Part shown: in pieces, positions 21,994 to 39,509 of the stretch
How positions within the stretch are numbered: position 1 is the first letter of the stretch
Layout: every line of letters begins with the position of its first letter
Source of the DNA: a virus
Virus record (IMG/VR): IMGVR_UViG_3300035698_010612
Location: 1-64,000 of that record
Reading direction: 5' to 3' (one strand)
Length of the DNA: 64,000 nt
Program-made: the position numbers and the translations under genes
Notes under the pieces: model-generated
Told to the model about the DNA's origin: nothing
Databases searched by the model: none
Seen by the model: only the letters and a program-made list of their open reading frames with translations

Positions 21994-22004
21994 AGGAATA
22001 GTGA

Positions 22005-22658
22005 ATGATAAAAAAAACAATATTGTTTCTGGCGATAACTCTTTTTCTGACAGTGGGAGTGTGCGGAGCGGATACTCTTCTTGCGGGGATTGGCTCAGAT
22101 ACCAGCACATCAACAGGTAATTTCGGTATCTGGAAAGGCGTCCGATACCAGGCTGCGGCTTCGGGGGATGCCGCTTATTTTGGTATTTACTGCAAAACCT
22201 ATGCGGGGGACAGGACGGATGATGACATAGGTTTTGCTGTTTATTCTGATGATGGGGGGGATCCACCTTCTCCGAGTGCTTTAATGTTTCATGGATGTCT
22301 TGAAAATTATGACTGGACGGCTCAAGGGACAGGAGTGTTTCATGATATTACTGTGGGGACTGTTGTAACAACTCGCACTATAACATCGGGTAGTTATTAC
22401 TGGATATTTTATGGCGATTCTGTGGGAACTGATGGCGATGATTGTGTGTGGACAGGGCGGTATAATGCGTCGAGCTGTTCTGATTTATCTTATAAGATGG
22501 GTTCTAATAATTGTGCTACCTTTTGCGTTCCCCCTACTGTTCTTCAAATGACCACCAGATATAATGGTGATCCATTGTGCTGTGAGGGGTATGAGTGTAG
22601 TGGCAATTATACGTTCGGACTATGGAACACCAATGAAACAATCATGATTCTTAAATGA
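22005..22658 (+). CDS. Secreted adhesin-like protein, 217 aa
   Basis: Signal peptide (MIKKTILFLAITLFLTVGVCG, cleavage near 21) and a beta-rich mature part with aromatic and Gly residues and a Cys-rich C-terminal half (about eight cysteines), suggesting a disulfide-bonded extracellular domain. A seven-G run lies near 22254. AAAGGAATAG ribosome region. Family unknown; context is the fibre cluster. Confidence 0.55.
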   Translation: MIKKTILFLAITLFLTVGVCGADTLLAGIGSDTSTSTGNFGIWKGVRYQAAASGDAAYFGIYCKTYAGDRTDDDIGFAVYSDDGGDPPSPSALMFHGCLENYDWTAQGTGVFHDITVGTVVTTRTITSGSYYWIFYGDSVGTDGDDCVWTGRYNASSCSDLSYKMGSNNCATFCVPPTVLQMTTRYNGDPLCCEGYECSGNYTFGLWNTNETIMILK

Positions 22659-22665
22659 GGGATTT

Positions 22666-24459: not shown

Positions 24460-24488
24460 ATAAAAGACACCACAGACTTTTAACTAAG

Positions 24489-24521
24489 CCCTTCGAGACG
24501 AAACTCTCAGGGGTTTTTTTT
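24489..24521 (+). terminator. Hairpin with U-tract between fibre genes
   Basis: CCCT-GAGA (with a two-base bulge) pairs with TCTC-AGGG around a CGAAAC loop, followed by eight Ts. The next ribosome site GGGAGGA lies immediately behind. Confidence 0.75.
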
Positions 24522-24537
24522 ATGGGAGGAACAGAAA

Positions 24538-25311
24538 ATGGGATCACTTAGCGATTTTTTAGAAAATGAATTGTTAGATCATGTGCTGCAAGTCGGGTCG
24601 TACTCACCACCCACGATTTATGTGGCATTGTCAACAGCCGACCCCACCGATGATGCGTCTGGAATTGCCGAACCGTCTGGCAATGGATACGCCAGGAAAG
24701 CTCATTCTGCATGGGATGCGGCAGCAAGCAGACTTACCGAGAATACAGGAGTAGTAACGTTTGATGCAGCCAGTGGAGCGTGGGGGACAATTACCCATTA
24801 TGCCATTTACGATGCTTCAACTGCTGGCAACATGCTTGCTCATGGATCGCTTTCGGTTGAAAAAGATATTGTTAATGGCAACACAGCAAGCATAGCCGAC
24901 GGGGAAATTGAGATCTCCTTTAGTGCTGGAGCAATCTTTACCACCCTTGCTAATGCTTTGCTGGATCATGTATTTGGGAATGGTGCTTATAGTGTGCCGG
25001 ACGTTCACGTTGCCCTTTCAACAACCATCCCAACAGACGGCGGGCCGAATATAACCGAACCATCTGGTAGTAATTATGCGAGAGTTGATGTTTCGGCGTG
25101 GGATGCTGCGGCTGCTGGTGCAACTGAAAATACAGGAGCGGTCAATTTCCCCACTCCATCAGGATCTTGGGGAGCTTGTGTCTATGTTGTCATTTGTGAT
25201 GCTCTTACCGGAACAGACTATCTTTTTTATGGGGATATAACCGACCAGACACCGGATAACGGCGACACTGTAAGGTTTAATGCCGGGGAACTAGACATTA
25301 CTCTTACTTAG
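24538..25311 (+). CDS. Tandem Gp80-like phage structural protein, 257 aa
   Basis: Two homologous halves of about 125 residues: LLDHVLQVGSYSPPTIYVAL ... and LLDHVFGNGAYSVPDVHVAL. Each continues with EPSGxxYAR, AWDAAA, ENTG and a Gly-terminated strand (FSAG / FNAG). This matches the widespread phage Gp80-type structural domain, normally present once per gene. Likely a fibre or decoration protein. Confidence 0.7.
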   Translation: MGSLSDFLENELLDHVLQVGSYSPPTIYVALSTADPTDDASGIAEPSGNGYARKAHSAWDAAASRLTENTGVVTFDAASGAWGTITHYAIYDASTAGNMLAHGSLSVEKDIVNGNTASIADGEIEISFSAGAIFTTLANALLDHVFGNGAYSVPDVHVALSTTIPTDGGPNITEPSGSNYARVDVSAWDAAAAGATENTGAVNFPTPSGSWGACVYVVICDALTGTDYLFYGDITDQTPDNGDTVRFNAGELDITLT

Positions 25312-27802: not shown

Positions 27803-27824
27803 ATTTTAGGAGGTGAATCAAATC

Positions 27825-28895
27825 ATGAATATAGCACAAGTTGATGGAATACACAGAGGACAGGCGTTTGGATCTGTTGCTGAAAGGCTGCTTGCTAACG
27901 GCATGGATACTAACGCTTTAAGACCTTGGGTTGAAGATGACCCGACCCGCTCTGATTTCGGTAAGTCATTTATTACTGCAAACGGGAAACGGGTTCCGAT
28001 TGCCAACGACACGCTGCTGCGGAAGGACGAATGGAAGCAGTATGACACCGTGGCAATCAAAACAGCACAAAGCAGGCTTATCGGTATTAATGACCTGATT
28101 CAAAGGGGTTTAACCTACAACATCTCGAATGGTTTGGGAAAAACCGTTTTAGAATACGAGGACATTTCTGACATCACGGCAGCCGAAACTTCAATGGACG
28201 CTGTGGCCGACACCAAGAAAGACCGCCCGAAATACGGAATCAACTACTTGCCCTTACCGATCACGCACAAAGATTTTCAGATCAATTTAAGGGTACTTTC
28301 AGCATCCCGTACAACCGGAATGCCACTTGATACCACGCTTGTCGAGTTTGCATCGAGGAAGGTAGCGGAACGGCTTGAAGCGATGCTGTTCACCGATATC
28401 ACTTATACCTTTGGCGGAGGGACAATCTACAGTTACATCAATGCACCTGACCGTAACACAGGAAATTTAACCGCTTGCTGGGATGATGAAAGCGATGCCG
28501 GTGGTGAACATATCCTGGAAGATGTCAGAGCCATGAAACAGGCTTCGATTGATGCCATGCATTACGGGCCTTGGGTGCTTTATGTCGCAACCAATTTTGA
28601 GACGGCTCTTGACGCTGATTTCAAAGCCGCATCGGATAAAACCGTCCGGCAGAGAATCTTAGAAATCGGCGGGATTACCGATGTCAAAGTAGCGGATACC
28701 CTAACGGCTGATAATGTGGTTCTGGTTCAGATGACCGCAGATGTTGTCAGGTTAGTTGTGGGGATGCCTATTTCTACCGTTCAATGGGACGAAAAGGGTG
28801 GTCTTATCAGCAACTATAAGGTGATGACTATTCAGGTTCCACAGATCAGGCAAGATCAGGCTGGGAATAGTGGGATCACCCATTATTGTTGTTAA
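27825..28895 (+). CDS. Major capsid protein, HK97/encapsulin-like (DUF6260-type)
   Basis: 356 aa from ATG 27825; the GTG at 27813 is inside the ribosome site. It contains NDTLLRKDEWKQYD near residue 60, then GINDLIQRGLTYNI, PLPITHKDFQINLR with the ASRTTGMPLDTT loop, VRQRILEIGGITDV and DVVRLVVGMPISTVQWDEKG. These are typical of encapsulin-related HK97-fold capsid proteins of the DUF6260 group. The N-terminus is not preceded by a long delta domain, consistent with a separate scaffold. It forms the icosahedral shell. Confidence 0.85.
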   Translation: MNIAQVDGIHRGQAFGSVAERLLANGMDTNALRPWVEDDPTRSDFGKSFITANGKRVPIANDTLLRKDEWKQYDTVAIKTAQSRLIGINDLIQRGLTYNISNGLGKTVLEYEDISDITAAETSMDAVADTKKDRPKYGINYLPLPITHKDFQINLRVLSASRTTGMPLDTTLVEFASRKVAERLEAMLFTDITYTFGGGTIYSYINAPDRNTGNLTACWDDESDAGGEHILEDVRAMKQASIDAMHYGPWVLYVATNFETALDADFKAASDKTVRQRILEIGGITDVKVADTLTADNVVLVQMTADVVRLVVGMPISTVQWDEKGGLISNYKVMTIQVPQIRQDQAGNSGITHYCC

Positions 28896-28915: not shown

Positions 28916-28949
28916 AGGGGAGTGAGTTTTTACTTGCTCCCCTATTTTA
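28916..28949 (+). terminator. Strong hairpin after the capsid gene
   Basis: A 12-bp stem AGGGGAGTGAGT / ACTTGCTCCCCT (28916-28927 with 28932-28943) closes over TTTT and is followed by ATTTTAT. It overlaps the region feeding GGAGG of the next gene; the U-tract is weak, so it may attenuate or protect RNA rather than fully terminate. Confidence 0.65.
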
Positions 28950-28959
28950 TGGAGGATTT

Positions 28960-29319
28960 ATGGCTAAGTACATTATCACCGGAGGCCCTCATTACAAACG
29001 AGGCTTTGACGGTAAATGGAAACGATATGTCAAAGACGACACTATTGACCTGTCTGATTTACATGCACAGAGCATCATGGACAAACTGAAACGGGTAAGT
29101 CCAAAAGAACCGATCGAGCAAGACATACCGGAGAAGAAAGAGAAACAATATGTATCTGACACCCAGGAATCGCCAGACAAACCGGAAGAAAATCGGGGGT
29201 TGAAAGCAGTTCATAAAGGTGCTGGTAGATACGATGTTGTAAACGAAAAATCCGGCAAGAAACTAAACGAAAAATCCCTTTCGAAAGACGAAGCGAATGC
29301 CCTGCTGGACAATTCCTAA
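28960..29319 (+). CDS. Hypothetical head-region protein, 119 aa
   Basis: N-terminal beta segment (YIITGGPHYKRGFDGKWKRYVKDD), Pro/Lys/Glu-rich linker and a C-terminal segment YDVVNEKSGKKLNEKSLSKD that resembles short modules found at the end of phage head proteins. GGAGG ribosome site. Position after the capsid gene suggests a head-completion or fibre protein. Its 3' end overlaps the next gene by 23 bases. Confidence 0.5.
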   Translation: MAKYIITGGPHYKRGFDGKWKRYVKDDTIDLSDLHAQSIMDKLKRVSPKEPIEQDIPEKKEKQYVSDTQESPDKPEENRGLKAVHKGAGRYDVVNEKSGKKLNEKSLSKDEANALLDNS

Positions 29320-29770
29320 GATTTGGGACGGTGACACCGCCTACATCCTTGGTGGTGGCCCTAGCCTTAACGATTGCAACCTTAACTTGATAAAAGATAA
29401 GCATGTGATCGGCGTGAACAATGCTTATCTCATGGGGCAATGGGTTGACATCTGTTGGTTTGGTGATTGCCGTTGGTGGGATTGGCACAAGGACGAGTTA
29501 AGGAAATTCGGCGGGTTAGTTGCAACGTGCTGCGTCCGGTTACTGGATAAAGGCTTGCCGTTGAAAATATGTCAACGGGGCAAACCGCAAGGCATTGAGA
29601 AGAGACAAAACAGGATCGCATGGAACAGTAATTCGGGTGGGAGTGCTGTAAACTTTGCTTACCACTTAGGAGCAAAGCGGGTTGTGCTTTTAGGATATGA
29701 CATGAGGCGGGTTAATGACCAGGCTAACTGGCACAACAACCATCCGGCTCCACAAAAGAATCCTTACTGA
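29297..29770 (+). CDS. DUF115-like protein, interrupted by an in-frame TGA
   Basis: 157 aa to TGA 29768-29770. Contains GGGPSLNDCNL near residue 14, VIGVNNAYLMG, DICWFGDCRWWDWH, then NSGGSAVNFAYHLGAKRVVLLGYDM. This matches the DUF115 (MptE-like, nucleotide-binding) proteins that accompany glycosyltransferases in phages and flagellin/surface-glycan loci. The same frame stays open for 41 more sense codons to 29896 with sequence continuing the family's C-terminus, and the next gene starts inside that later stop. The gene is therefore truncated, read through, or mis-sequenced at 29768. Confidence 0.65.
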   Translation: MPCWTIPKIWDGDTAYILGGGPSLNDCNLNLIKDKHVIGVNNAYLMGQWVDICWFGDCRWWDWHKDELRKFGGLVATCCVRLLDKGLPLKICQRGKPQGIEKRQNRIAWNSNSGGSAVNFAYHLGAKRVVLLGYDMRRVNDQANWHNNHPAPQKNPY

Positions 29771-29896
29771 CGCTTTATCAAGCGGTTCAGTCGAATCGCC
29801 AGAGATGCCCTTATCTTAAACTTGGAGATAATAAATGCAACGCCTGGTAGTGCATTGACCTTTTTCCCTATTCAAAAGTTGGAGGATTTAGTTTGA
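29771..29896 (+). other. Open in-frame extension beyond the TGA of the DUF115-like gene
   Basis: Codons from CGC 29771 to TGA 29894-29896 encode RFIKRFSRIARDALILNL... and end LTFFPIQKLEDLV, reading as the normal C-terminus of the preceding protein (Arg-rich helix, then INATPGSAL). The final TGA overlaps the TTG start at 29893 (TTGA), as in other coupled genes here, which argues that 29896 is the original end. Confidence 0.7.
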
Positions 29897-30426
29897 ACAC
29901 AGAACCGGAAGAATGGGTAATTTTAGACAAGCTAACCGACATTATCTTAACACATTGTAAGGGCTGTATTGTAGAGATCGGGATGGGAACATCAACTCCG
30001 ATGTTTGTCAAACACGCCAAGCATTTCGGGGTTGTTCTTTACAGTTGCGACATAGATGAAGAGAAACTGCGGATAGCCCTGAGAAGTGCAAGAAAAATAC
30101 GGCACAATGTTTTTCATGGGACATCAATAGACTTCATGGAACAGCTTGACGTTAATCCCGCCGTTGTTTTCATTGACGGCTTACATGAAAGCCATACTGT
30201 TTTCAAAGAAGTCGATTTCTTTTTACCAAGGCTTTTACCGGGCGGGGTTATCTTTTTACATGATACGTTACCGCCCTGTACTTTATATAAAGACCCTGAT
30301 TATTGCGGGGATGTGTATAAGGTTCGCAGACATTTTGAAGGGAGTAAGGACATTCAATGTTTTACTTTCCCTTATACCGCAAAAAATTGCGGGCTCACCA
30401 TGTTAATGAAAAATAATGGATATTAA
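29893..30426 (+). CDS. SAM-dependent methyltransferase, Methyltransf_24-like
   Basis: 177 aa, TTG start with GGAGG and TTGA overlap. Motif I is IVEIGMGTSTP (about 26-36); a second acidic strand VVLYSCDIDEEK follows; VVFIDGLHES and the LLPGGVIFLHDT strand are typical of class I methyltransferases of the Methyltransf_24 type, which act on small molecules or sugars. No DNA-methyltransferase motifs (NPPY/DPPY) are present. Overlaps the radical-SAM gene by 11 bases. Confidence 0.75.
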   Translation: MNTEPEEWVILDKLTDIILTHCKGCIVEIGMGTSTPMFVKHAKHFGVVLYSCDIDEEKLRIALRSARKIRHNVFHGTSIDFMEQLDVNPAVVFIDGLHESHTVFKEVDFFLPRLLPGGVIFLHDTLPPCTLYKDPDYCGDVYKVRRHFEGSKDIQCFTFPYTAKNCGLTMLMKNNGY

Positions 30427-31390
30427 AAACTCATACACGGCAGCGGATAGCTTGCCAGCTAAATTAGTCAGGGATTACCGGCTAGTTGAAATAATCGCTA
30501 ACCGAAAAGTGATCCCCCCCGTTCATGTTCAGTTTATTCCTACCAACAAGTGTAATATGAATTGTGAGTTTTGCAGTTGTGCGGAAGATGACCGCAAGAC
30601 AGAAATGAGCATTGACGATGCGGGGGCTATTATCGCACAGTTGCGGGAACTTGGAACAAAAGCGGTTACTGTCACAGGTGGCGGGGAACCTTTATTATAC
30701 CCCTACATACAAAGACTTTTATGGTCATTTGCCCTTGCGGGGATCCAGATAGGGCTAGTCACCAACGGACTGTTATTAAAACAACAGTCTGAGGCTTTGA
30801 AATGCGTTGTGTGGTGCAGGATATCGAATGATGACAAACGATCTTTGACAGGTAAATACAGGGATGATTTAAGCGAAGTTGTCAATCAGCGACCTAACGT
30901 AGATTGGGCTTTTTCTCATGTGATATCAGCAAATCCTAATATTGACGAGATTCAGAGGGTAATTGAGTTCGCCAATAAGCACGAATTTACCCATGTAAGA
31001 TTAGTTGCCGACATATTGCACCCTGATGCTGTCGATATGGGGTCTGTAAGGCACGATATACTCCAAAGAGGGGTAGATGATAGGCTGGTTATTTATCAGC
31101 CGAGAAACGAGCCTAAAAAGGGTGGTGATTGCTACATCTGTTACTTGAAGCCAATCATCGGGGCTGACTGTAAGGTTTATACCTGTTGCGGGGTCCAATA
31201 TGCTTTAGATCCTCCATCAAAGAAAATGCCAAAGGAGCTATGCCTGGGGAGTGCTTTTAAGTTTCACAATATCATCGAAAGAAGCCATATCCCGTTTAAA
31301 GGGCAAATCTGCAAGAAGTGTTATTACACGAATTATAATATCGCATTAAAAGCAATGTTGACGGATGTTGACCATGAATGTTTCCTCTAA
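30416..31390 (+). CDS. Radical SAM enzyme with Cys-rich C-terminal domain
   Basis: 324 aa. Canonical C46-x3-C50-x2-C53 (NKCNMNCEFC) binds the [4Fe-4S]-SAM cluster; GGGEP at 88-92 is the SAM-contact motif. The C-terminal third has six or more cysteines (DCYICYL, YTCCG, QICKKCYY) typical of SPASM/twitch auxiliary-cluster domains. Such enzymes modify peptides, sugars or cofactors by radical chemistry; substrate unknown. It overlaps the methyltransferase upstream and the methyltransferase downstream, so it acts within the glycan cassette. Confidence 0.85.
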   Translation: MDIKNSYTAADSLPAKLVRDYRLVEIIANRKVIPPVHVQFIPTNKCNMNCEFCSCAEDDRKTEMSIDDAGAIIAQLRELGTKAVTVTGGGEPLLYPYIQRLLWSFALAGIQIGLVTNGLLLKQQSEALKCVVWCRISNDDKRSLTGKYRDDLSEVVNQRPNVDWAFSHVISANPNIDEIQRVIEFANKHEFTHVRLVADILHPDAVDMGSVRHDILQRGVDDRLVIYQPRNEPKKGGDCYICYLKPIIGADCKVYTCCGVQYALDPPSKKMPKELCLGSAFKFHNIIERSHIPFKGQICKKCYYTNYNIALKAMLTDVDHECFL

Positions 31391-32000
31391 ACGCAAAGCC
31401 GAACTGGTTTTCTGGGAGAAAGAAAAAGAGCAGTATGCCGAATGGTTTGCTGGCCAAAGGTGGCTCCACGGAGTTCCCCCGCTTAATGGCAAATGCAACG
31501 ATTATCAATCCCCGGAGCATGCTTGGATAAAACTATATCAGGAGCCTCATTATTTGAAGTCGCTTGGCATACCGAAAAATGCATTTGAGGGAAAGACCGT
31601 TTTGGAAATCGGATGTGGTCCCGTATCAGGGGCAAGCGTTTTTATAGGTGCAACTATTTTCAAGCTCGACCCTTTGATATGCGAATATCAAAAGTTGGGG
31701 TTCGATGTATATGGAGCATCCGAATGTATCCACGAAACATCATATTCTAAACTTTGCTTTGATGCGGTGATAGCGGTTAATAGCATAGACCATGTTGACC
31801 GTTTTCGAGACAGTGCGTTTGAGATAATACGAGTTTTGAAAGATGGTGGGCTGTTTGCTATGAATGTCCACTATCACAAGCCGACTGTATGCGAGCCGGT
31901 TGAGCTAAACGACAAGATATTTTTTAATGCCTTCCGGTGGATTAAGGGACTGGAGAAGAAAAAACAAATCGGGGACAAAGCTATATGGAGGAACTTTTGA
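31365..32000 (+). CDS. Class I SAM methyltransferase, 211 aa
   Basis: Motif I VLEIGCGPVSG (about 79-89), then a SAM-binding acidic strand, FDAVIAVNSIDHVDRF and VLKDGGLFAMNVHYH (motifs of Methyltransf_11/23). The N-terminus is helical with FWEKEKEQYAEWF. Starts at ATG 31365 or 31374 inside the radical-SAM gene. Likely a small-molecule or sugar O-methyltransferase in the cassette. Confidence 0.75.
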   Translation: MLTMNVSSKRKAELVFWEKEKEQYAEWFAGQRWLHGVPPLNGKCNDYQSPEHAWIKLYQEPHYLKSLGIPKNAFEGKTVLEIGCGPVSGASVFIGATIFKLDPLICEYQKLGFDVYGASECIHETSYSKLCFDAVIAVNSIDHVDRFRDSAFEIIRVLKDGGLFAMNVHYHKPTVCEPVELNDKIFFNAFRWIKGLEKKKQIGDKAIWRNF

Positions 32001-32713
32001 AAACACTTGAGATCACCACAAAGATTGGCTGTTTTAACTGTAAGTATTGCCCGCAGGATAAGTTGTTAAAAGCATACAAGAGCGGCATTAAAGATTTATC
32101 TTTTTATCTATTCCAGGTTGCCCTTGCAACCGTTCCAAAAGATATCAGGATTGATTTCTCCGGTATGGGTGAGCCGTTTCTAAATCCCGAAACGATTGAT
32201 ATGATTTTAAATACTCATCTCAGGGGATATAAGATCGCGGTGTTTACAACTTGTGTCGGGCTGACCAAAAAGCACGTTCAAAAAATCCAGCATATTCCAT
32301 TTGAGACATTTGAGATCCACACAAGAGACCAGGCTAAGTTATCACCGATTCCACAATCACCGGACTTGCAAAATGTGATTAAAGTTGCAAAACGACGGCT
32401 TTCAAATGTTGTTATTAGTAATCATTTAAAAATAAAGTTAATCAGCAGGGCGGGAAATGTTGGTGGTATTAAAGCACCTGACCACAAAGGCAAGATAAAA
32501 TGCTCAAGAGGACTTGAACGGTTTGTCTTGTTACCGAATGGGGATTTAATATTGTGTTGCATGGATTACAGTATGAGGCATGTTATGGGGAACCTATTAA
32601 ACCAAAGCTATATAAGCGTAGTTGGTGGCAAAGAATTTCAATCGGTTAAAGACGCTATGTTATCAGGTGATGATGTATTGTGTCGAAAATGCGAAATGGC
32701 TAGAGCAATCTGA
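31997..32713 (+). CDS. Radical SAM/SPASM protein with atypical cluster motif
   Basis: 238 aa from TTG 31997, which has GGAGG five bases upstream and a TTGA overlap with the previous stop; ATG 31985 adds four residues. The cluster motif reads GCFNCKYCPQ, i.e. C-x2-C-x2-C, one residue short of the canonical C-x3-C-x2-C, while the following CPQ and the later GMGEP are normal. The C-terminus has SPASM-like cysteines (KCSRGL, LCCMDYSMRHVMGNL, CRKC). Either a true variant or a one-codon deletion. Confidence 0.75.
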   Translation: MKTLEITTKIGCFNCKYCPQDKLLKAYKSGIKDLSFYLFQVALATVPKDIRIDFSGMGEPFLNPETIDMILNTHLRGYKIAVFTTCVGLTKKHVQKIQHIPFETFEIHTRDQAKLSPIPQSPDLQNVIKVAKRRLSNVVISNHLKIKLISRAGNVGGIKAPDHKGKIKCSRGLERFVLLPNGDLILCCMDYSMRHVMGNLLNQSYISVVGGKEFQSVKDAMLSGDDVLCRKCEMARAI

Positions 32714-32725
32714 CCTTTTGTCGTT

Positions 32726-33133
32726 TCAATCTGTTTCGGCTTTAACTGTGCTGACAGTCATGTGTTTCATGATTACGTCGTAATAATTTTTTTTCTTACT
32801 TATCTTCAATGCACAAAAGATAGATTTATACTTTAAAGTAAGAGGCGTTTTCCTGCTGACACTTTTAATGGTCTGTTGGTGGGCAAGCTCTAGGGTAGGA
32901 AACTGCAAACGATAATGGTTTTGCAAAAGAAGCGTTTCCTGGGGGGTACATTGCAAACAACATTCTGTAATATATGAGTGATTGTATCCATCCAAATCAT
33001 CAAAAAACTGCCTTTTGGTTTGTTTGGGGTCAGATATATCAATATGCTCCCGATTATAAGCTACGCCATCTATTTTTATAATAGTACCCACGCAGATATC
33101 TTCGATAAACAATTTCGGGGGTTGTTTAGACAT
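32726..33133 (-). CDS. Reverse-strand hypothetical protein, 135 aa
   Basis: Starts at ATG 33133 after AAGGAGGATTGAG, two bases beyond the stop of the ribbon-helix-helix gene. Beta-rich N-terminal part (FIEDICVGTIIKIDGVAYN), two cysteine pairs (ECCLQC) and a basic C-terminus. Not recognised. Last gene of a three-gene reverse operon inside the glycan cassette. Confidence 0.6.
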   Translation of the reverse strand: MSKQPPKLFIEDICVGTIIKIDGVAYNREHIDISDPKQTKRQFFDDLDGYNHSYITECCLQCTPQETLLLQNHYRLQFPTLELAHQQTIKSVSRKTPLTLKYKSIFCALKISKKKNYYDVIMKHMTVSTVKAETD

Positions 33134-33134
33134 C

Positions 33135-33284
33135 TCAATCCTCCTTGTTGGGGTTAAAATCTTTGACATACTCTTCCATGCAGGAAATAAAAAACTCCTT
33201 CATGGATATGCCGTTTAGCTTTAGTTTTGATGCACAGCGTTTCATAAGGTCTTCAGGGATGTCTCTGATTAGAAATGTTTTCAT
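33135..33284 (-). CDS. Ribbon-helix-helix (Arc/CopG-like) regulator, 49 aa
   Basis: Reads MKTFLIRDIPEDLMKRC..., the beta strand plus turn of an Arc/MetJ-type fold, followed by helices (LKLNGISMKEFFISCM). AAGGGGAAGGAGAACA ribosome site before ATG 33284. Proteins of this size and fold are dimeric repressors or antitoxins. It is flanked by operon partners and its likely operator repeats lie over the promoter at 33571-33608. Confidence 0.7.
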   Translation of the reverse strand: MKTFLIRDIPEDLMKRCASKLKLNGISMKEFFISCMEEYVKDFNPNKED

Positions 33285-33320
33285 TGTTCTCCTTCCCCTT
33301 GCGGGTGTTAAATTAATTAT

Positions 33321-33530
33321 TTACAGAGCCGTTGCTAAACAAAACAATAGCATTTCAGTAATTTTACTTTTATTTGCATTATAATCTGAAGAAACCGTAG
33401 TGGGGTAGTTTCCGGTATCAATGCCATATTCAACTTTGAAGTTCATATATGTTTTGCCATCGATAGCAGTGATTATTTTTTCAACCTGTTCTTTACTCCC
33501 GATGTTTCCTAGATCGATTATTTTGCTCAT
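33321..33530 (-). CDS. Reverse-strand hypothetical protein, 69 aa
   Basis: Starts at ATG 33530 after AAAAAGGAGAACATT. Contains a beta hairpin (KTYMNFKVEYGIDTGNYP) and a hydrophobic C-terminal helix (EMLLFCLATAL). First gene after the leftward promoter. Function unknown; the neighbouring RHH gene makes a toxin-antitoxin-like pair a possibility, but no toxin fold is recognised. Confidence 0.55.
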   Translation of the reverse strand: MSKIIDLGNIGSKEQVEKIITAIDGKTYMNFKVEYGIDTGNYPTTVSSDYNANKSKITEMLLFCLATAL

Positions 33531-33570
33531 AATGTTCTCCTTTTTAAATGGTTTGTGTTGAGTTGCCCTT

Positions 33571-33598
33571 ATAATAGCATGATAATAATGGTTGTCAA
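33571..33598 (-). promoter_or_regulatory. Promoter of the reverse mini-operon
   Basis: Minus-strand TTGACA (33598-33593), 16-bp spacer, TATTAT (33576-33571). A direct repeat GATAATAATG occurs at 33581-33590 and 33599-33608, flanking the -35 box with an 18-bp period, suited to a ribbon-helix-helix repressor. Confidence 0.7.
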
Positions 33599-33608
33599 GA
33601 TAATAATG
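33581..33608. repeat. GATAATAATG direct repeat, candidate RHH operator
   Basis: Two exact 10-bp copies (33581-33590, 33599-33608), 18 bp apart, overlapping the leftward promoter. Arc/CopG-type repressors commonly bind such paired sites; the regulator is inferred to be the 49-aa protein at 33135-33284. Confidence 0.5.
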
Positions 33609-33661
33609 ATAAGCAACGGTGCAAGTGTATGAAACATAAAGGAATAATAATTATCTGAAAC

Positions 33662-33690
33662 TTGACACGAAAAACAGCAATGGTCATAGT
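33662..33690 (+). promoter_or_regulatory. Rightward promoter of the glycosyltransferase genes
   Basis: TTGACA (33662-33667), 17-bp spacer and CATAGT (33685-33690). It diverges from the reverse-operon promoter and would restart transcription for the genes from 33765 on. Confidence 0.45.
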
Positions 33691-33764
33691 TTTGTTAAGT
33701 AGCTGAATTATAAAAGAAAAACAGAGACAAAAGAGATAAGTGGTTGAAATTAAAGGGATTTACC

Positions 33765-34523
33765 ATGCCAGAACAGAGAATAGTAATCATAAGTGCGGGC
33801 TGGAACTGCGGCGGTTATGTTGACGAATGGTATCAAAGCATCGCATCCCAGAAATATAATAATTTTGTATGCCTGGCGATTGATGACAACAGCGATGATG
33901 ATACTTTTTTAAGGCTGCTCAAATGTGCAAAAGAGGACAAGCGGTTTATTGTTATAAAAAACACAGAAAGGAAATGGGGATTATATAACAAGTCGGTTGG
34001 CCTCATAGAGAATGGGCTTGTTGATGACAATGACATTATTGTAAGTGTTGATATAGACGACTATTTGGTTGGCGATATGGCGTTGTGGACGGTCAACAAA
34101 ATATTCAGCAATGATAACGTATGGTTTTCTTACGGGAACATGAAGCCACATATGAATGTATGCAAGCCGATAGACTGGCCGGTATCTATTAGAAAGCAAA
34201 CGTGGAAAACGTCTTGCTTAAGAGCTTGCCGCTGGTTCCTGTTGAAGAATATTTTAAAAAAAGATTTACAAGATGCAAGCGGTAACTGGCATAAGTTTCC
34301 AGAAGACAGAATCGTGTGTTACCCGATGGTTGAAATGGCTGGGCGGGATCATGTGTGGTGCAACCAGGTAATCTTATATCATCACCGGGACGATAACCCC
34401 CGCTGCGATTTCAAGGTTAACCAAAAGCAGATTGACGACACCTTGAACGATCTATTACAGCAACCGCCTTATAAAGAAAAGACTTACGAAGAACTCATGG
34501 AGCATAGAAACGATTGGCTGTAA
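33765..34523 (+). CDS. Family 2-like glycosyltransferase (GT-A)
   Basis: 252 aa from ATG 33765 (AAAGGG upstream); a TTG at 33744 lies further up. GT-A features: RIVIISAGWNCGGYV at the start, AIDDNSDDDT (about 38-47) as the nucleotide-sugar loop, and VDIDDYL (96-99) as the metal-binding DxD. The C-terminal half contains WKTSCLRACRW and EDRIVCYPMVEMAG, consistent with the acceptor side. Transfers an unknown sugar; overlaps the next gene by ten bases. Confidence 0.8.
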   Translation: MPEQRIVIISAGWNCGGYVDEWYQSIASQKYNNFVCLAIDDNSDDDTFLRLLKCAKEDKRFIVIKNTERKWGLYNKSVGLIENGLVDDNDIIVSVDIDDYLVGDMALWTVNKIFSNDNVWFSYGNMKPHMNVCKPIDWPVSIRKQTWKTSCLRACRWFLLKNILKKDLQDASGNWHKFPEDRIVCYPMVEMAGRDHVWCNQVILYHHRDDNPRCDFKVNQKQIDDTLNDLLQQPPYKEKTYEELMEHRNDWL

Positions 34524-35353
34524 AACTACCGAAGCAGATATGGTTCTTTTGGGGCAACGAGAAGATGAGTTTCCTCCGATACATGACGCTCAAATCATTT
34601 GCTCATTATAACCCTGATTGGCAAATCAATTTAATTGTGCCAGAGGACCCGATTAGCCAAAAAGAATCAAAGAAGATTTGGGACGAGGAACAGGATTATA
34701 CTTATTACGATGGTGCGGATTACACCGAGCAAGCACATGAAATAGTCAAGGTCATCAAGCTCAAAGACTTTGCTCCTGATTATGTAAAGCATCCCCCTAA
34801 TATTATCGGGGATTTACTCAAATGGCTTGTGCTTGGATTTGGCGGTGGTGTGTTTTCTGACATGGACATTTTGTTTGTCAAGCCGTTCCCTTACATAAAA
34901 TATAATGACATCCAAACTGGAATATACAAATATTTATCGGGTGCTTATCCGGCTGGTTTTCTGATTGGGAATCGAAGTCCGTTATTCCAAACCGCTTACT
35001 TTCTTTCGGTAAAACGATTAAAAAAACAATTAAACAATTACCAGGACATGGGGCCGCTATTATTGAGGGATGCATATTGGTCTGTTAGTAATCAATCCAA
35101 CATTACATTTATACCCAATGAGACGGTTTACCCATTTATAAATGGACGAGGAAACGGGGAAAAATGGCAAGACCATTTAGCGATTCCCTTCTTGCCAAAA
35201 AGCGAGGACATTAAATTGCCCGATGAATGTTTCGGCATCCATTGGTACGGTGGGTGTCAGGCAGCCAAGCAGTATAATGCAATAGCCGATCACAACACAT
35301 ATAAAAATATGGAGTGTCTAATAACCAGAGAGATCAAGCGGGTTATAACATGA
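34514..35353 (+). CDS. GT32-like glycosyltransferase with DxD
   Basis: 279 aa, TTG start coupled to the previous gene. KLPKQIWFFWGNEKMSF and FAHYNPDWQINLI are the opening of Gly_transf_sug proteins. GDLLKWLVLGFGGGVFSDMD (DxD at 116-118) is the conserved centre. FGIHWYGG near 245 is the late His motif. Resembles capsular or lipopolysaccharide mannosyl/galactosyl transferases. Confidence 0.82.
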   Translation: MAVKLPKQIWFFWGNEKMSFLRYMTLKSFAHYNPDWQINLIVPEDPISQKESKKIWDEEQDYTYYDGADYTEQAHEIVKVIKLKDFAPDYVKHPPNIIGDLLKWLVLGFGGGVFSDMDILFVKPFPYIKYNDIQTGIYKYLSGAYPAGFLIGNRSPLFQTAYFLSVKRLKKQLNNYQDMGPLLLRDAYWSVSNQSNITFIPNETVYPFINGRGNGEKWQDHLAIPFLPKSEDIKLPDECFGIHWYGGCQAAKQYNAIADHNTYKNMECLITREIKRVIT

Positions 35354-35958
35354 ACGATGACAACCTATGTATAGACAACTGGAGAACACTTCACGACAAC
35401 GGATATTTCGAGAACCATCCTCATTACCGGAACTGGAAACTGGATGCATCCGCTGTTGCTTTTCAAATCATGAAGTATGCCGGATTATATAGCACAGATG
35501 ATGTGCTGGAAATCGGGTGTGGCTATGGGCGGATTATGTATGCTGTTTCGGATCATGTCAACACAGTCAAGGGAATCGATCTTCACGAAGCTCCACTTAA
35601 AAAAGCAATAGAGATATTAAGGGTCAAACCAAATACAGAAGTTATCATGTGTACCGGGCAGACTATCCCGTTACCTGATAATTCGGTTGATTTAGTCTAT
35701 TCGTTTTCAGCAATGCAGCACATGCCAAGAAGCATTGTCGAGAAATATCTTGTTGAAATTATTCGAGTGTTAAAACCGGGAGGCAGGTTTTGTTTGCAGT
35801 TTCTATCTGCTCCGATGGGGCTGGAAGATATTAATCCACAAAAAGCACAAGAGCAATCAGTAGGGTGGGAACGGAACGACTTGATAAACCTGGCAAGCCG
35901 ACATTTCAAAGAATTTACAGTTTATGCTTATCCACTTATCTTGAAAGGAGAGGTATGA
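35350..35958 (+). CDS. Class I SAM methyltransferase, 202 aa
   Basis: ATGA coupling at 35350. Motif I VLEIGCGYG (52-60), then TVKGIDLHEAPLKKA, DLVYSFSAMQHMP and VLKPGGRFCLQF: a textbook Methyltransf_11 enzyme. Probably methylates a sugar or lipid intermediate in the same pathway. Confidence 0.82.
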   Translation: MNDDNLCIDNWRTLHDNGYFENHPHYRNWKLDASAVAFQIMKYAGLYSTDDVLEIGCGYGRIMYAVSDHVNTVKGIDLHEAPLKKAIEILRVKPNTEVIMCTGQTIPLPDNSVDLVYSFSAMQHMPRSIVEKYLVEIIRVLKPGGRFCLQFLSAPMGLEDINPQKAQEQSVGWERNDLINLASRHFKEFTVYAYPLILKGEV

Positions 35959-36701
35959 AATATAGTATTTTGATGCCGTACTTAAGGCGGGCAGGGCAGT
36001 TGCACAATACCTTGATATCTTTTGAACAGCATTACTTTTTACGGAAGCAAGATTTTGAGGTAATTATAATTGAAGATGAGAAAAACTCTTTAGACCAAAG
36101 ACAACACAATGCATTAGTGGCTGTCTTGGATCACTTTTTTCCCCGGATGAACATAAAACATTTGCACACAAACAACAAGGATCAGTTTAACCCTGCTCCG
36201 CTTTTTAACTTAGCAGGCAAAAAAGCAAGCGGTGAATTTCTAATTGTTACAAATCCAGAGTGCTTTCATTCTAGCGATATCTTAGACGGGCTGGATTGGG
36301 AGTTTAAGCAAAACCCAGATGTCTATGTAGTGTGTGCCTGTAAAAGCTGGAAAGAATGCGATCTTTACATTCCTTGTTTTGATGCTATGTGTGGCAGACA
36401 CCACGCATGGTATCAGCACTCTATAAATCGGAATGCTCAATATCATTTCTGCTCTGCTATTTCAAAAAAGAATTGGGATAAGCTCGGCGGCTTTGATGAA
36501 CGATTCGGGGATGGAATCGGCTATGATGACGATGATTTCAGGGATAGAGTAAAACATGCGGGCATCCCATTTGTTACAAGAGATGACCTTCTAACAATAC
36601 ATATTCAACACGAAAAAAGCGATAGACCCAAAGGATTTAGAACGCTATTAAAGAAAAACGAGAAGCTGTATAAAACAAACTGTGTGGAGAGAGGATGCTA
36701 A
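35955..36701 (+). CDS. GT2/GT27-like glycosyltransferase, 248 aa
   Basis: Start ATG 35955 with AAAGGAGAGG and ATGA overlap. YSILMPYLRRAGQLHNTL opens the nucleotide-binding fold; EVIIIEDEKNS is the sugar-nucleotide loop; GGFDERFGDGIGYDDDDF (around 200) matches the acceptor-recognition motif of galactosaminyl/galactosyl transferases (Glyco_transf_7C). The usual DxD is replaced by a less acidic TNPECFH, which is unusual. Confidence 0.75.
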   Translation: MKYSILMPYLRRAGQLHNTLISFEQHYFLRKQDFEVIIIEDEKNSLDQRQHNALVAVLDHFFPRMNIKHLHTNNKDQFNPAPLFNLAGKKASGEFLIVTNPECFHSSDILDGLDWEFKQNPDVYVVCACKSWKECDLYIPCFDAMCGRHHAWYQHSINRNAQYHFCSAISKKNWDKLGGFDERFGDGIGYDDDDFRDRVKHAGIPFVTRDDLLTIHIQHEKSDRPKGFRTLLKKNEKLYKTNCVERGC

Positions 36702-37318
36702 AAGTTGTTTGTGTTTTAAAATCAGGCGGTGATTATGATGAGACTTACGTTCTGGCTTTGTATTACGCTGTTTTACGGAATCTTACTATACCTTTTGAGT
36801 TCGTATGTTTATCGGATGTACCGGTTATTTGCGGATGTGTACCTCTGACAAATAATTGGGAAGGCTGGTGGTCAAAGATAGAGATGTTTAAATTAACAGG
36901 CCCCGTCCTGTATCTCGATCTTGACACCGTTGTCGTAGGGAGCCTTAACCCATTGGCAGAGTCTATTTTAAATCTGCCTGTAGACCAGTTTCTAATGTTG
37001 CGGGCACTCCACAAAAGGCGGCAATGGGCTTCCGGTATAATGGGATGGAATGGTGACTTCTCATTTATTTACGATAGCTTTAATTACGATAGATGCCCCA
37101 AACACTTCCCCTGGGATCAGCAGTATATTATTAACAGGCTATTGGGGAAAAGCATTTCAATAAAGTATGTCCAGGATTATCAATCGGGTATGTATAGTTA
37201 CAAGAAATACTGTAGGCAAACTGGCTGCCCTCCGGATGATGCAACCGTCGTTTATTTTCATGGGAAGCCACGGCCTCATCAATGCATAGAAACTTGGATA
37301 AAGGAGAACTGGGCATGA
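36695..37318 (+). CDS. GT8-like glycosyltransferase, first paralogue
   Basis: 207 aa. VVCVLKSGGDYDETYVLALY opening, FEFVCLSDVPV, WWSKIEMFKLTGPVLYLDLD (DxD) and ASGIMGWNGDFSFIYD, ending with YFHGKPRPHQ. This pattern is widely seen in phage-borne putative glycosyltransferases. Closely related to the gene at 37794-38477. GAGAGAGG ribosome site. Confidence 0.75.
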   Translation: MLKVVCVLKSGGDYDETYVLALYYAVLRNLTIPFEFVCLSDVPVICGCVPLTNNWEGWWSKIEMFKLTGPVLYLDLDTVVVGSLNPLAESILNLPVDQFLMLRALHKRRQWASGIMGWNGDFSFIYDSFNYDRCPKHFPWDQQYIINRLLGKSISIKYVQDYQSGMYSYKKYCRQTGCPPDDATVVYFHGKPRPHQCIETWIKENWA

Positions 37319-37797
37319 ATCCGTTTACAATTATTATCAAGAACGACACAGGTATTGGACTTGGCACAAAAGTATATAATGAAAAAGGAGTGGAATTAGA
37401 AGGTGTCGCTGGCATCCATTTAGATGTTGTCTTTGACGATGCCAATTTTGCAGACCTACGGTTTACTCATGTTAAGCTAGACGTTAAAGCTACGACAAGA
37501 GACTACATCATTTCTTGTTCAATATGCGGAGGCGATGTTGATTTGAGCAAGCCGGTTAAACTATTTGAAGGTTCTATGGATAAAGATGGTTTGTTCCCTG
37601 TTATGTGCCACAAGTGTTTAGAGAAAGAAGGGGGGGCGAAAGAAAAGAAAGAAGCGAAGAACGGCTATGGGAAAACGGTGATTTGCAAGTGTTGCGGAAG
37701 ACCCTTTGAGTCTATTGATGCCCGTGAAATAGTTATAGATAATTGGGTACTGAAACCTGTATGCAGAAGATGCTTTATACAAGAGAACAATAAATGA
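37315..37797 (+). CDS. Double zinc-ribbon protein, 160 aa
   Basis: Start ATG 37315 after AAAGGAGAAC, overlapping TGA. Residues 1-60 are beta-rich (FTIIIKNDTGIGLGTKVYN); C-x2-C pairs at CSICGG/CHKC and CKCCG/CRRC make two zinc ribbons. Located between two paralogous glycosyltransferases and coupled to both. Function unknown; the N-terminal part resembles small virion-associated beta domains. Confidence 0.6.
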   Translation: MNPFTIIIKNDTGIGLGTKVYNEKGVELEGVAGIHLDVVFDDANFADLRFTHVKLDVKATTRDYIISCSICGGDVDLSKPVKLFEGSMDKDGLFPVMCHKCLEKEGGAKEKKEAKNGYGKTVICKCCGRPFESIDAREIVIDNWVLKPVCRRCFIQENNK

Positions 37798-38477
37798 CCA
37801 GCGAAAAACCTATCTTAACAGTCGCTTGCGTGCTGCGGTCTGGCAAAGAGTTTACTCCTCATTATGTAAATGTTATGGAGCATCATATTGAGAAGAACTT
37901 AACCGTACCGCACCGATTTGTTTGTCTTTCCGATGTTAAAGTCAGATCAGACCGGATTCCCCTGGAACATAACTGGCGGAGATGGTGGCCTAAAATCGAA
38001 CTGTTTAAATTGCCAAGCCCTGTTCTCTATTTCGATCTTGACGTATTGGTTGTTAATAATATTGACAGCCTGGCGAACTATGTTTTGTCAATGGGCTCCG
38101 ATGAGTTCCTTTGTTTTAAGCCTATCAAATTCAGGGATGTTAATCAGGTAGGATCAACAGTTTTGGCCTGGACGGGTGATTTTTCGTTTGTCTACAATGA
38201 GTTTGTCCCCACAGCAAATAAGTTGATGCTAAAGTACGGAGGGGATCAGAGATGGGTTTGGAAGTCGATTAGAAGGAGAGAAGGGCTGAAACTTACTTAC
38301 ATAAAAACGGTGCAAAGCGGTGTCTATTTCTATTCTATTGATTGCCGCGATTATGACCAGCAGCCGGACGATGCGACGATAATTATTTTCTGCGGTCATC
38401 CACGGCCACCCAGGATAGATAAACCGTGGGTGAGGCAACATTACCAGAACTTTTTCCCAGAGAGGCTAATGAAATGA
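37794..38477 (+). CDS. GT8-like glycosyltransferase, second paralogue
   Basis: 227 aa. TVACVLRSGKEFTPHYVNVM, HRFVCLSDVKV, WWPKIELFKLPSPVLYFDLD (DxD) and STVLAWTGDFSFVYNEF align throughout with the protein at 36695-37318. The tandem copies presumably add related sugars. ATGA coupling to the zinc-ribbon gene, and its stop is overlapped by the sulfotransferase start. Confidence 0.78.
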   Translation: MTSEKPILTVACVLRSGKEFTPHYVNVMEHHIEKNLTVPHRFVCLSDVKVRSDRIPLEHNWRRWWPKIELFKLPSPVLYFDLDVLVVNNIDSLANYVLSMGSDEFLCFKPIKFRDVNQVGSTVLAWTGDFSFVYNEFVPTANKLMLKYGGDQRWVWKSIRRREGLKLTYIKTVQSGVYFYSIDCRDYDQQPDDATIIIFCGHPRPPRIDKPWVRQHYQNFFPERLMK

Positions 38478-39163
38478 TTGTTTACCCTATTTTTAATGAA
38501 CCCGTACTCGTTACTGGCTGTGCAAGAAGTGGAACATCTTTAGTCGCCGGAATCCTTAATCTATGCGGTGCATACATAGGAGGAACATCGGGGCCGACGA
38601 GATACAACAAAAAGGGGCAGTTTGAAAACGGGGAAATCCGGAAGAACATAGTCAAGCCATATATCAAAGGCATGGGGTATGATCCGATGTGTCAGAACCC
38701 ATTACCGGACATCAATAAACTGGCTCTATTCGATATGCGGTCAAGGGTGTTGGATGCAATGGTCAATCAGGAGTACGAAGGTGGTCATTGGATGTATAAG
38801 TGCCCCGAAATGTGCCTGATATTGCCCGTGTGCAATGACGCCTTCCCTGGTGCTAAATGGATAATTGTCCGACGTGACACAGACGATATCATTGACTCTT
38901 GTTTAAATACGCAATTTATGCGGGCTTATAGAGATAGAAAAGGATGGAGAAAATGGGTAGATGTTCACGTCGAACGATTCCACGAAATGAAAAACGTGGG
39001 GCTGGATGTCCACGAAATATGGTCATGGAAAGTAGTTGCAGGAGATTATAGAGAAATAAGGGAAGCAGTTATAGATTGCGGATTAGAATGGAATGAATCC
39101 GCAGTCAGAGATTTTGTGTCACCTGAACTTTATCACAGCAAGCGAGAGGTAAATCATGGCTAA
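38474..39163 (+). CDS. Sulfotransferase family protein
   Basis: 229 aa from ATG 38474 (AGAGG upstream; ATGA overlap). The PAPS 5'-phosphosulfate loop is TGCARSGTSLVAG (about 14-26), and KWIIVRRDTDDIIDS supplies the 3'-phosphate-binding Arg and Ser. Family knowledge: transfers sulfate from PAPS to carbohydrate or small-molecule hydroxyls. As the last gene of the cassette it could sulfate the finished glycan. It overlaps the first connector gene by eight bases. Confidence 0.8.
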   Translation: MIVYPIFNEPVLVTGCARSGTSLVAGILNLCGAYIGGTSGPTRYNKKGQFENGEIRKNIVKPYIKGMGYDPMCQNPLPDINKLALFDMRSRVLDAMVNQEYEGGHWMYKCPEMCLILPVCNDAFPGAKWIIVRRDTDDIIDSCLNTQFMRAYRDRKGWRKWVDVHVERFHEMKNVGLDVHEIWSWKVVAGDYREIREAVIDCGLEWNESAVRDFVSPELYHSKREVNHG

Positions 39164-39509
39164 CAGAGTTACACATGCAGATTTAATATTAGTCTTTGAT
39201 ACGGACATAGCAGATACGACCCCGTTTATCACAACGGCAAATCTTATCGTGACAGACAAATTAGACGGTGAAGGTTTATCGGCTGCTCAATTAAAAGAGA
39301 TTGAACAATATCTAAGTGCTCACATGGCATCCCTTATGGATCAACGGATTGCACAGGAGAAAATCGGGGAGGTAGCCGTAACCTATCAGGGGAAAACAGG
39401 GCTTGGATTGGACGGTACAAAGTACGGGCAGACGGTTAAGATGCTGGACACAACGGGCATCCTTGCCAGCATGGGAAAAGGGAAAATAACCTTTGACGCA
39501 TTGGTGTAG
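39156..39509 (+). CDS. Head-tail connector protein, 117 aa
   Basis: Helical N-terminal part (ITTANLIVTDKL, then AQLKEIEQYLSAHMASL) with the layout of HK97 gp6-type connectors, and a C-terminal KYGQTVKMLDTTGILASM. First structural gene after the glycan cassette, in the position where the head-completion protein normally follows the capsid gene. GCGAGAGG ribosome site. Confidence 0.65.
   Translation: MANRVTHADLILVFDTDIADTTPFITTANLIVTDKLDGEGLSAAQLKEIEQYLSAHMASLMDQRIAQEKIGEVAVTYQGKTGLGLDGTKYGQTVKMLDTTGILASMGKGKITFDALV

Follow-up and report, generated by a model that had tools for sequence, protein, structure and literature searches.

What are the enzymes of glycan synthesis doing among the head genes of a temperate phage? 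The question arises from a 64,000-nucleotide stretch of DNA, here called the window, which makes up positions 1 to 64,000 of the 67,251-base IMG/VR virus record IMGVR_UViG_3300035698_010612. It encodes a temperate tailed phage, with terminase, portal and MuF-like genes, a DUF6260-type gene for the major capsid protein (MCP), a tape measure gene and a minus-strand integrase. Between the MCP gene and the first conserved downstream gene, which we call the connector from its position only (its family match has function unknown), lie 10.26 kb in which a preliminary description had listed a DUF115-like protein, three methyltransferases, two radical SAM proteins, five GT-A-like glycosyltransferases, a zinc-ribbon protein and a sulfotransferase. 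These genes are all present, at or near the positions first reported, and Pfam and PHROG searches support each enzyme class (Table 1). The interval is probably a cassette for decorating the virion, conserved at its edges (DUF115 and the sulfotransferase) and swappable in its interior.

Recurrence of the capsid-connector slot

Capsid relatives were fetched from IMG/VR (80 retained of 467 confirmed) and from bacterial and archaeal genomes, and the stretch from MCP to connector, the slot, was read with hidden Markov models (HMMs) built from window proteins. Some loci were fetched by the sulfotransferase; the statistics use capsid-fetched loci only, one per 90%-identity cluster. In all, 85 capsid clusters (90% identity) yielded 95 distinct complete slots. 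Of these slots, 77 are filled (1.2-11.5 kb, the window's being the second largest) and 18 are empty (82-910 bp). A cassette is found in 53 of the 67 capsid-fetched lineages with a complete slot. DUF115 is present in 49 of these 53, as the second gene after the MCP in 45; the sulfotransferase is present in 47, directly preceding the connector in 45; and both occur together in 43. The sulfotransferase usually ends between -106 and +34 bp from the connector start. The gene order that the preliminary description proposed to look for beside DUF6260-type capsids in metagenomic phages recurs, in other words, in dozens of capsid lineages.

The association also holds in the reverse direction. Of 80 loci fetched by DUF115 only, 75 carried this MCP no more than 2.5 kb upstream and another 4 were cut by contig ends; 69 of those 75 had upstream of DUF115 the small tagged gene described below. 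Around sulfotransferase-fetched loci (n = 77), the connector lies within 60 bp downstream in 57 and within 2.5 kb in 13 more. The smallest cassettes consist of the tagged gene, DUF115 and the sulfotransferase (L018, L024, L035) or of the sulfotransferase by itself (L028, L031, L201). In three loci (L139, L177, L182) an overlapping DUF115-sulfotransferase pair sits on the far side of the connector gene, and the pair therefore moves as a unit. Its place there is between connector genes 1 and 3 (parts of it are found in L129), and in L177 the usual place is occupied too, by a second DUF115 and glycan genes.

The recognizable interior genes of relatives are nearly all glycan-related. They include methyltransferases (among them FkbM), GT2, GT9, GT11 and GT47-like transferases, hexapeptide acetyltransferase, nucleoside diphosphate-sugar epimerases/dehydratases, UDP-glucose/GDP-mannose dehydrogenase, DegT aminotransferase and extra sulfotransferases. 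The commonest, in 38 of the 53 filled slots, is a phrog_1962-type glycosyltransferase of the family encoded at 36695, and a sub-module of radical SAM 1 with the families at 34514 and 35955 recurs in L016, L050, L116, L147 and L151. Some slots hold a transketolase as two genes, for the thiamine pyrophosphate-binding and pyrimidine-binding parts (L064:12582-13376, L072:4764-5243), possibly for synthesis of branched or higher sugars; another holds a B12-binding radical SAM protein (L095:7818-9005), of a radical SAM class other than the window's.

On the capsid tree, one large clade is characterized by the cassette, which was lost secondarily several times within it. The slot is empty in the isolates Brevundimonas StAshley/MaInes and Halorubrum Hardycor1, whose branches fall outside that clade; the window MCP is 36-37% identical to those of Brevundimonas phages. 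Across 50 lineages, DUF115 diverges in step with the MCP (rho 0.56) to the degree seen for the pre-capsid protein (0.59) and the connector (0.53), and much more so than the sulfotransferase (0.24) or the interior glycosyltransferase (0.20). By these values DUF115 acts as a core head-module gene and the interior as exchangeable. Run against 133 Zixiibacteriota genomes, the profiles of DUF115 and the sulfotransferase match at phage loci only; the intact host locus that the preliminary description had named as counter-evidence was not seen there with these profiles. Phage-encoded glycosyltransferases are here genetically linked to virion structural genes, and the recurrence of one slot with constant edge genes and a variable interior strongly supports a glycan programme that is phage-borne and goes with the capsid.

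DUF115, the tag and the sulfotransferase

What might the edge genes do? The predicted structure of a DUF115 relative 50% identical to the window protein (L002) has a predicted local distance difference test score (pLDDT) of 90. This model matches the sialyltransferase CstII first (1ro8; E 2e-4, probability 1.00, TM-score about 0.5) and MptE (8sd5) next, with human ST8SiaIII as a further match, and the DUF115 profile reaches CstII/CstI from sequence alone (E 3e-4). The central pfam01973 domain of the Maf (motility accessory factor) enzymes likewise resembles CstII; these enzymes O-glycosylate flagellin, transferring nonulosonic acids activated with cytidine monophosphate onto its Ser/Thr residues, and do so in the cytoplasm, before their substrate self-assembles (PMC11339370). 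The phage DUF115 relatives share with Maf a related Pfam family and the CstII-like fold, but they are single-domain proteins of about 200-230 amino acids, have no N- or C-terminal Maf domains, and are linked to the capsid rather than to flagellin.

The preliminary description was right that the window carries a DUF115-like gene, but the reading frame is broken by an in-frame TGA at 29768-29770 that is absent from aligned relatives. Beyond it, 41 more in-frame residues, homologous to all relatives, continue to 29896, where the frame overlaps the TTG start of the next gene by 4 bases. The protein as shortened by the TGA scores 27.9 against pfam01973, under the cut-off of 34.6. Recoding of TGA was considered and rejected: TGA closes 9 of the 29 genes listed, and beyond each of these stops except that of DUF115 the frame extends only into short unrelated sequence. 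A pattern scan of IMG/VR found no second copy of the stop region, so that error, decay and readthrough are indistinguishable.

The small gene between the MCP and DUF115 genes, which has no Pfam or PHROG match, ends in a tag of about 40 residues (GAGRYDVVNEKSGKKLNEKSLSKDEANALL). The tag lies at or near the C-terminus with a consensus of roughly GGGxYDVxNxxTGKxxNEKxLxxxEAxxL, in which one Asn is invariant. The tag HMM finds it in 66 of the 77 filled slots and in none of the 18 empty ones; among capsid-fetched slots, the counts are 51/59 filled and 0/18 empty. Within the cassette clade, 66/77 filled slots compare with 0/4 empty ones (Fisher p 8e-4), and from three of those four the small gene is missing altogether. 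We regard the small gene as encoding a candidate acceptor or docking protein and the tag as a candidate acceptor or docking element. The tag is not supported as a tyrosine-sulfation site, since its aromatic position varies among Y, F and W, with no invariant Tyr. Nor is it supported as a general phage motif. A tblastn search of 50,697 phage records gave no match, weak evidence with so short a query, and the HMM matched no open reading frame (ORF) in the regions examined of D3, PAJU2, P1, D14C, IME307, CcrColossus, StAshley, MaInes and Hardycor1.

At the other edge, the window sulfotransferase scores 39.6 bits against Sulfotransfer_3 (cut-off 27). Its 5'-phosphosulfate-binding (5'-PSB) and 3'-phosphate-binding (3'-PB) motifs are intact, with RSG.S and R......S invariant across 17 aligned sequences. 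The model (pLDDT 91) matches the folds of tyrosylprotein sulfotransferases (TPSTs) and mycobacterial sulfotransferases, and TPST chains form most of the 14 Foldseek matches at E up to 0.001. The P-loop Arg (of RSGT), Lys109, Arg134 and Ser142 are invariant and align with TPST1; in TPSTs these are functional residues. TPST1/2 are the best-matching solved folds and have residues for binding 3'-phosphoadenosine-5'-phosphosulfate (PAPS) and catalytic-type residues in common with the phage enzyme, but identity is only 14-19% and the phage sulfotransferase is soluble. A tblastn search with the sulfotransferase gave no match in the 50,697 phage records.

Known systems and rival explanations

The same tblastn search with DUF115 gave matches in 70 records, including Caulobacter and Brevundimonas giant phages, P. 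aeruginosa D3-like phages, P1 and P7. In D3 (L298:5762-9143) the homologue separates the major head protein gene from those for head-tail adaptors and is followed by orf12 and a methyltransferase, within the connector genes; the D14C counterpart of orf12 is annotated GT9. The PAJU2 homologue (L299:4986-6929), annotated "structural protein", likewise sits among head-tail connector genes, in company with a GT9-like gene and a methyltransferase. The "putative morphogenetic" region of P1 (79592-82147; L300:4941-7496) holds the DUF115 relatives PmgO and, weakly, PmgP, along with PmgQ, a phrog_1962-type glycosyltransferase of the same family as 36695 (E 3e-45). Like the window cassette, the PmgO/PmgP/PmgQ set and the DUF115-GT9-methyltransferase trio of D3/PAJU2-like phages join glycosyl- and methyltransferases to a DUF115 homologue (E about 1e-29 to 1e-36); unlike it, they are smaller, have neither sulfotransferase nor tag, and accompany unrelated capsids. 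With these loci, the link between DUF115 and structural genes holds across unrelated capsids and gains laboratory models. It is possible that pmgO, pmgP and pmgQ form an unrecognized virion-glycosylation locus in a model phage.

Virion glycosylation by phages is already known; what is new is the proposed sulfation, the tag and the DUF115-capsid linkage. In mycobacteriophages Che8, Corndog and Myrna, phage glycosyltransferases modify capsid and tail-tube proteins (Freeman et al. 2023), and cluster O mycobacteriophages add an O-methyltransferase, as cited in PMC11600133 and PMC12363180. The cassette described here belongs to another phage lineage, is read from gene content, and goes beyond those systems in its DUF115/Maf-like hallmark, sulfotransferase, radical SAM and sugar-nucleotide genes, and conserved capsid-connector slot. 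The passages of PMC7029224 that we used describe pelagimyophage hypervariable regions in which glycosyltransferases and radical SAM cassettes occur with tail-fibre genes, read as modifying the host O-chain. These are likewise variable phage regions with glycosyltransferases and radical SAM proteins, but conserved DUF115-sulfotransferase edges are not reported in those passages. A literature search, with most subscription journals outside its reach, found no publication joining sulfotransferase, phage capsid, radical SAM and glycosyltransferase.

How would such a cassette work? We picture a soluble, cytoplasmic glycan pathway that would be made together with the head proteins. The capsid-dedicated DUF115 would attach the first sugar after recognizing some protein of the head, which could be the capsid, a decoration protein or the small tagged protein; exchangeable interior enzymes (glycosyltransferases, methyltransferases, radical SAM proteins) would build and modify the chain, to which in relatives epimerases, dehydrogenases, an aminotransferase, a fucosyltransferase and an acetyltransferase would contribute; and the terminal sulfotransferase would add a sulfate cap, with host PAPS as the source. 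The machinery would then lie in the conserved edges, and the variable middle would set the glycan type. Judging from the enzyme families, the product would be methylated and sulfated, and its probable benefit would be escape from recognition or defence, or adjustment of the charge of the particle surface. Gene content, the conservation of the slot and of its edge order, co-divergence, similarity of fold and the small number of membrane proteins are observed; late expression, the acceptor, the donor sugars, the sulfation and the benefit are the points that we infer. A more specific version, which we put forward tentatively and consider rather doubtful, is that this large lineage of uncultured phages builds lineage-specific sulfated glycans, possibly sialic-acid-like and methylated, on its own heads through a three-part core of a tagged, head-associated acceptor, a Maf/CstII-like transferase that co-evolves with the capsid and recognizes this acceptor, and a TPST-like sulfotransferase, the last capping the product or sulfating a head protein directly. 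If this were true, these phages would possess a system for virion sulfation whose glycan-type locus can be swapped, in its logic like bacterial O-antigen and flagellar glycan islands.

Is the phage's own particle the target at all? The preliminary description had named both the virion and the host surface, and the second has some appeal: a temperate phage could alter lipopolysaccharide, capsule or S-layer glycans to block superinfection or change the lysogen, the interior genes resemble O-antigen enzymes, gtr seroconversion cassettes are known to act on the host surface, and pelagimyophage glycosyltransferases are read this way in the passages of PMC7029224 cited above. We nevertheless consider host-surface remodelling quite unlikely. 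The cassette encodes no polymerase and none of the membrane proteins of a gtr-type system (GtrA flippase, GtrB bactoprenol transferase, polytopic Gtr). Among slot proteins of at least 120 amino acids (n = 455), a 19-residue hydropathy (KD19) of 1.9 is reached by just 8, all but one marginally (one at 2.19), unlike the positive controls GtrA, GtrB and GtrC of P22 (2.0, 2.4 and 2.8). So few membrane proteins favour a cytoplasmic acceptor, namely a virion protein, over an exported host or envelope glycan, and the virion is favoured also by the fixed position between capsid and connector within the structural operon, the tight coupling to the connector, the co-divergence of DUF115 with the capsid, and the relatives in P1, D3 and PAJU2. 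A different objection is that sulfation may not involve the glycan, the TPST-like enzyme placing sulfate on a head protein itself, with the glycan enzymes as a separate layer. The TPST matches and the invariant residues aligned with TPST1 are consistent with this, as are the three slots that hold the sulfotransferase only (L028, L031, L201). We judge it unlikely all the same, given the remote similarity to TPST, the lack of an invariant Tyr in the tag, and the presence of DUF115 beside the sulfotransferase in 43 of 47 capsid-fetched cases; moreover, the Sulfotransfer_3 family also includes carbohydrate sulfotransferases.

It is also conceivable that the slot is a permissive hotspot in which unrelated morons, functionally unconnected with the head, collect downstream of the capsid gene, as the highly variable interior and the minus-strand gene group that interrupts the window copy might suggest. 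This seems distinctly improbable when the edge genes keep their identity and position over strongly diverged capsids, nearly all of the recognizable interior belongs to a single functional class, and the DUF115-sulfotransferase pair is unbroken even beyond the connector; cargo would not be expected to co-diverge with the capsid. Highly improbable, finally, is decoration of phage DNA bases against restriction, although such hypermodification has been proposed for phage glycosyl- and sulfotransferases (PMC10829341) and all of the enzymes appear soluble. No hydroxymethylating or base-activating enzyme was recognized among the scanned window genes (some small ORFs lay outside the scan), location and co-divergence indicate the head rather than replication genes, and the relatives in D3, PAJU2 and P1 sit in regions for structure or morphogenesis.

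Several observations weigh against virion decoration as we have set it out. Against CstII the DUF115 model reaches TM-scores of no more than about 0.5, and the pterin diphosphokinase MptE is similarly folded, for which reasons DUF115 is best called a putative glycosyltransferase. The sulfotransferase-only slots mean that DUF115 is not needed for every product, and the window's own DUF115 may be decaying, unless the TGA is a base error or is read through. The link between tag and cassette is backed by only three supported independent evolutionary contrasts, which always agree in direction but whose p value is not significant, so shared descent may account for it. The conservation of the edges, too, could partly reflect insertion history.

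If virion decoration is correct, what follows? Gene order by itself suggests that virion glycosylation, known so far from a few mycobacteriophages, is a core trait of this whole lineage. The DUF115 hallmark also stands beside the D3 head genes and in the P1 morphogenesis region, which makes pmgO, pmgP and pmgQ testable in E. coli. Were sulfation to be confirmed, sulfated surfaces would be new to phage biology, with bearing on charge, adsorption, persistence, recognition and proteomics. A DUF115 gene adjoining a capsid gene can meanwhile serve as a search handle for virion-glycosylation loci in metagenomes.

The window's own copy

Table 1. Features of the capsid-connector slot and its surroundings in the window.
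Feature	Position	Strand	Evidence and remarks
Major capsid protein, DUF6260 / phrog_771	27813..28895	+	PF19774 E 8.5e-24; phrog_771 E 6e-28; upstream border of slot
Terminator-like hairpin, MCP/cassette junction	28916..28943	+	12-bp stem, T-rich tail; region's count of such sites at chance level
Small post-capsid gene, 119 amino acids, C-terminal tag	28960..29319	+	Same position in filled slots
C-terminal tag, ~40 residues	29197..29316	+	Tag HMM E 1.8e-13
DUF115/MptE-like glycosyltransferase-fold gene	29297..29896	+	phrog_4603 "alpha-2,3-sialyltransferase" E 2e-33; PF01973 E 2e-6
Class I methyltransferase, Methyltransf_24	29893..30426	+	E 3e-15
Radical SAM protein 1	30416..31390	+	Radical_SAM PF04055 E 5e-14; canonical CNMNCEFC
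Class I methyltransferase, Methyltransf_11	31365..32000	+	E 1e-5
Radical SAM/SPASM protein 2, BtrN-like	31985..32713	+	SPASM E 8e-9; weak Radical_SAM E 6e-4
Minus-strand group	32726..33530	-	ORFs 32726-33169 (147 amino acids), 33135-33284, 33321-33530 (69 amino acids)
GT2-family glycosyltransferase	33744..34523	+	PF00535 E 4e-6; ATG at 33765 is the likelier start
Gly_transf_sug-like glycosyltransferase	34514..35353	+	PF04488 E 0.004, below cut-off, backed by relatives
Class I methyltransferase, Methyltransf_11/25	35350..35958	+	E 3e-19
Glycosyltransferase, Glyco_tranf_2_2 / Glyco_transf_7C	35955..36701	+	Pfam
Glycosyltransferase, phrog_1962	36695..37318	+	E 3e-32; relative of P1 PmgQ
Double zinc-ribbon-like protein	37315..37797	+	Two CxxC...CxxC pairs in sequence
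Glycosyltransferase, phrog_1962	37794..38477	+	E 9e-22
Sulfotransferase, Sulfotransfer_3	38474..39163	+	PF13469 E 9e-10
Connector, first conserved downstream gene	39156..39509	+	phrog_37884 E 3.5e-8, conserved order; downstream border of slot
Integrase	58501-59634	-	Marks phage as temperate

In the window the cassette had been taken for one programme. This applies from the GT2-family gene at 33744 into the connector gene at 39156, which are coupled without a break and with ATGA overlaps at five junctions, but the minus-strand group breaks the cassette after radical SAM 2. There, an AT-rich gap of 1 kb before the GT2-family gene holds three minus-strand ORFs, of which 33135-33284 is ribbon-helix-helix-like as judged by eye; Pfam gave no match for it or for 32726-33169. 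Promoter-like sites point in both directions, at 33598-33571 (minus strand) and 33662-33690 (plus strand, upstream of the GT2-family gene); the sigma-70 promoter scan gave a site count no higher than chance. The group has the look of a moron under its own regulation, or of a toxin-antitoxin-like unit, within the cassette. The hairpin at the start of the cassette may keep its expression below that of the MCP, although its position is suggestive only. Family searches (Pfam, PHROG) gave no match for the double zinc-ribbon-like protein.

The CxxxCxxC motif ascribed to the radical SAM proteins holds for the first of them, which has the canonical CX3CX2C and scores 53.3 bits against PF04055 (cut-off 29.5). 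Its relatives in the PDB are MoaA, cytosylglucuronate decarboxylase and viperin, and its phage relatives occupy the same slot; a search for it in 133 Zixiibacteriota genomes, run with no positive control, gave no match. Radical SAM 2 does not have the motif, its GCFNCKYC being C-x2-C-x2-C; it is under the PF04055 cut-off and over that for SPASM. It aligns over its whole length (residues 1-237) with BtrN, a 2-deoxy-scyllo-inosamine dehydrogenase (E 4e-7), from which it differs in this shortened cluster motif, and its sole viral relative (L053) has CPLKCTFC, i.e., CX3CX2C. Radical SAM chemistry together with sulfation had been thought unusual for a phage locus. The radical SAM half of that claim is weaker than stated, since these proteins are optional (radical SAM 1 occurs in 5 of the 53 filled capsid lineages) and radical SAM cassettes figure in the pelagimyophage passages of PMC7029224. 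The diagnostic parts of the cassette are the sulfotransferase and DUF115.

Two further features lie upstream of the capsid gene. The MuF-like head gene (14879-17119) is split by an intein (Intein_splicing, HINT) with a DUF559/MTES_1575-type endonuclease domain. The interval between MuF and the capsid protease (17183-25311) contains fibre-like genes, among them one encoding a beta-helix plus LamG protein of 1123 amino acids and one with a Gp80 podophage fibre domain (257 amino acids). These are mostly without counterparts in the capsid relatives and may possibly encode head fibres.

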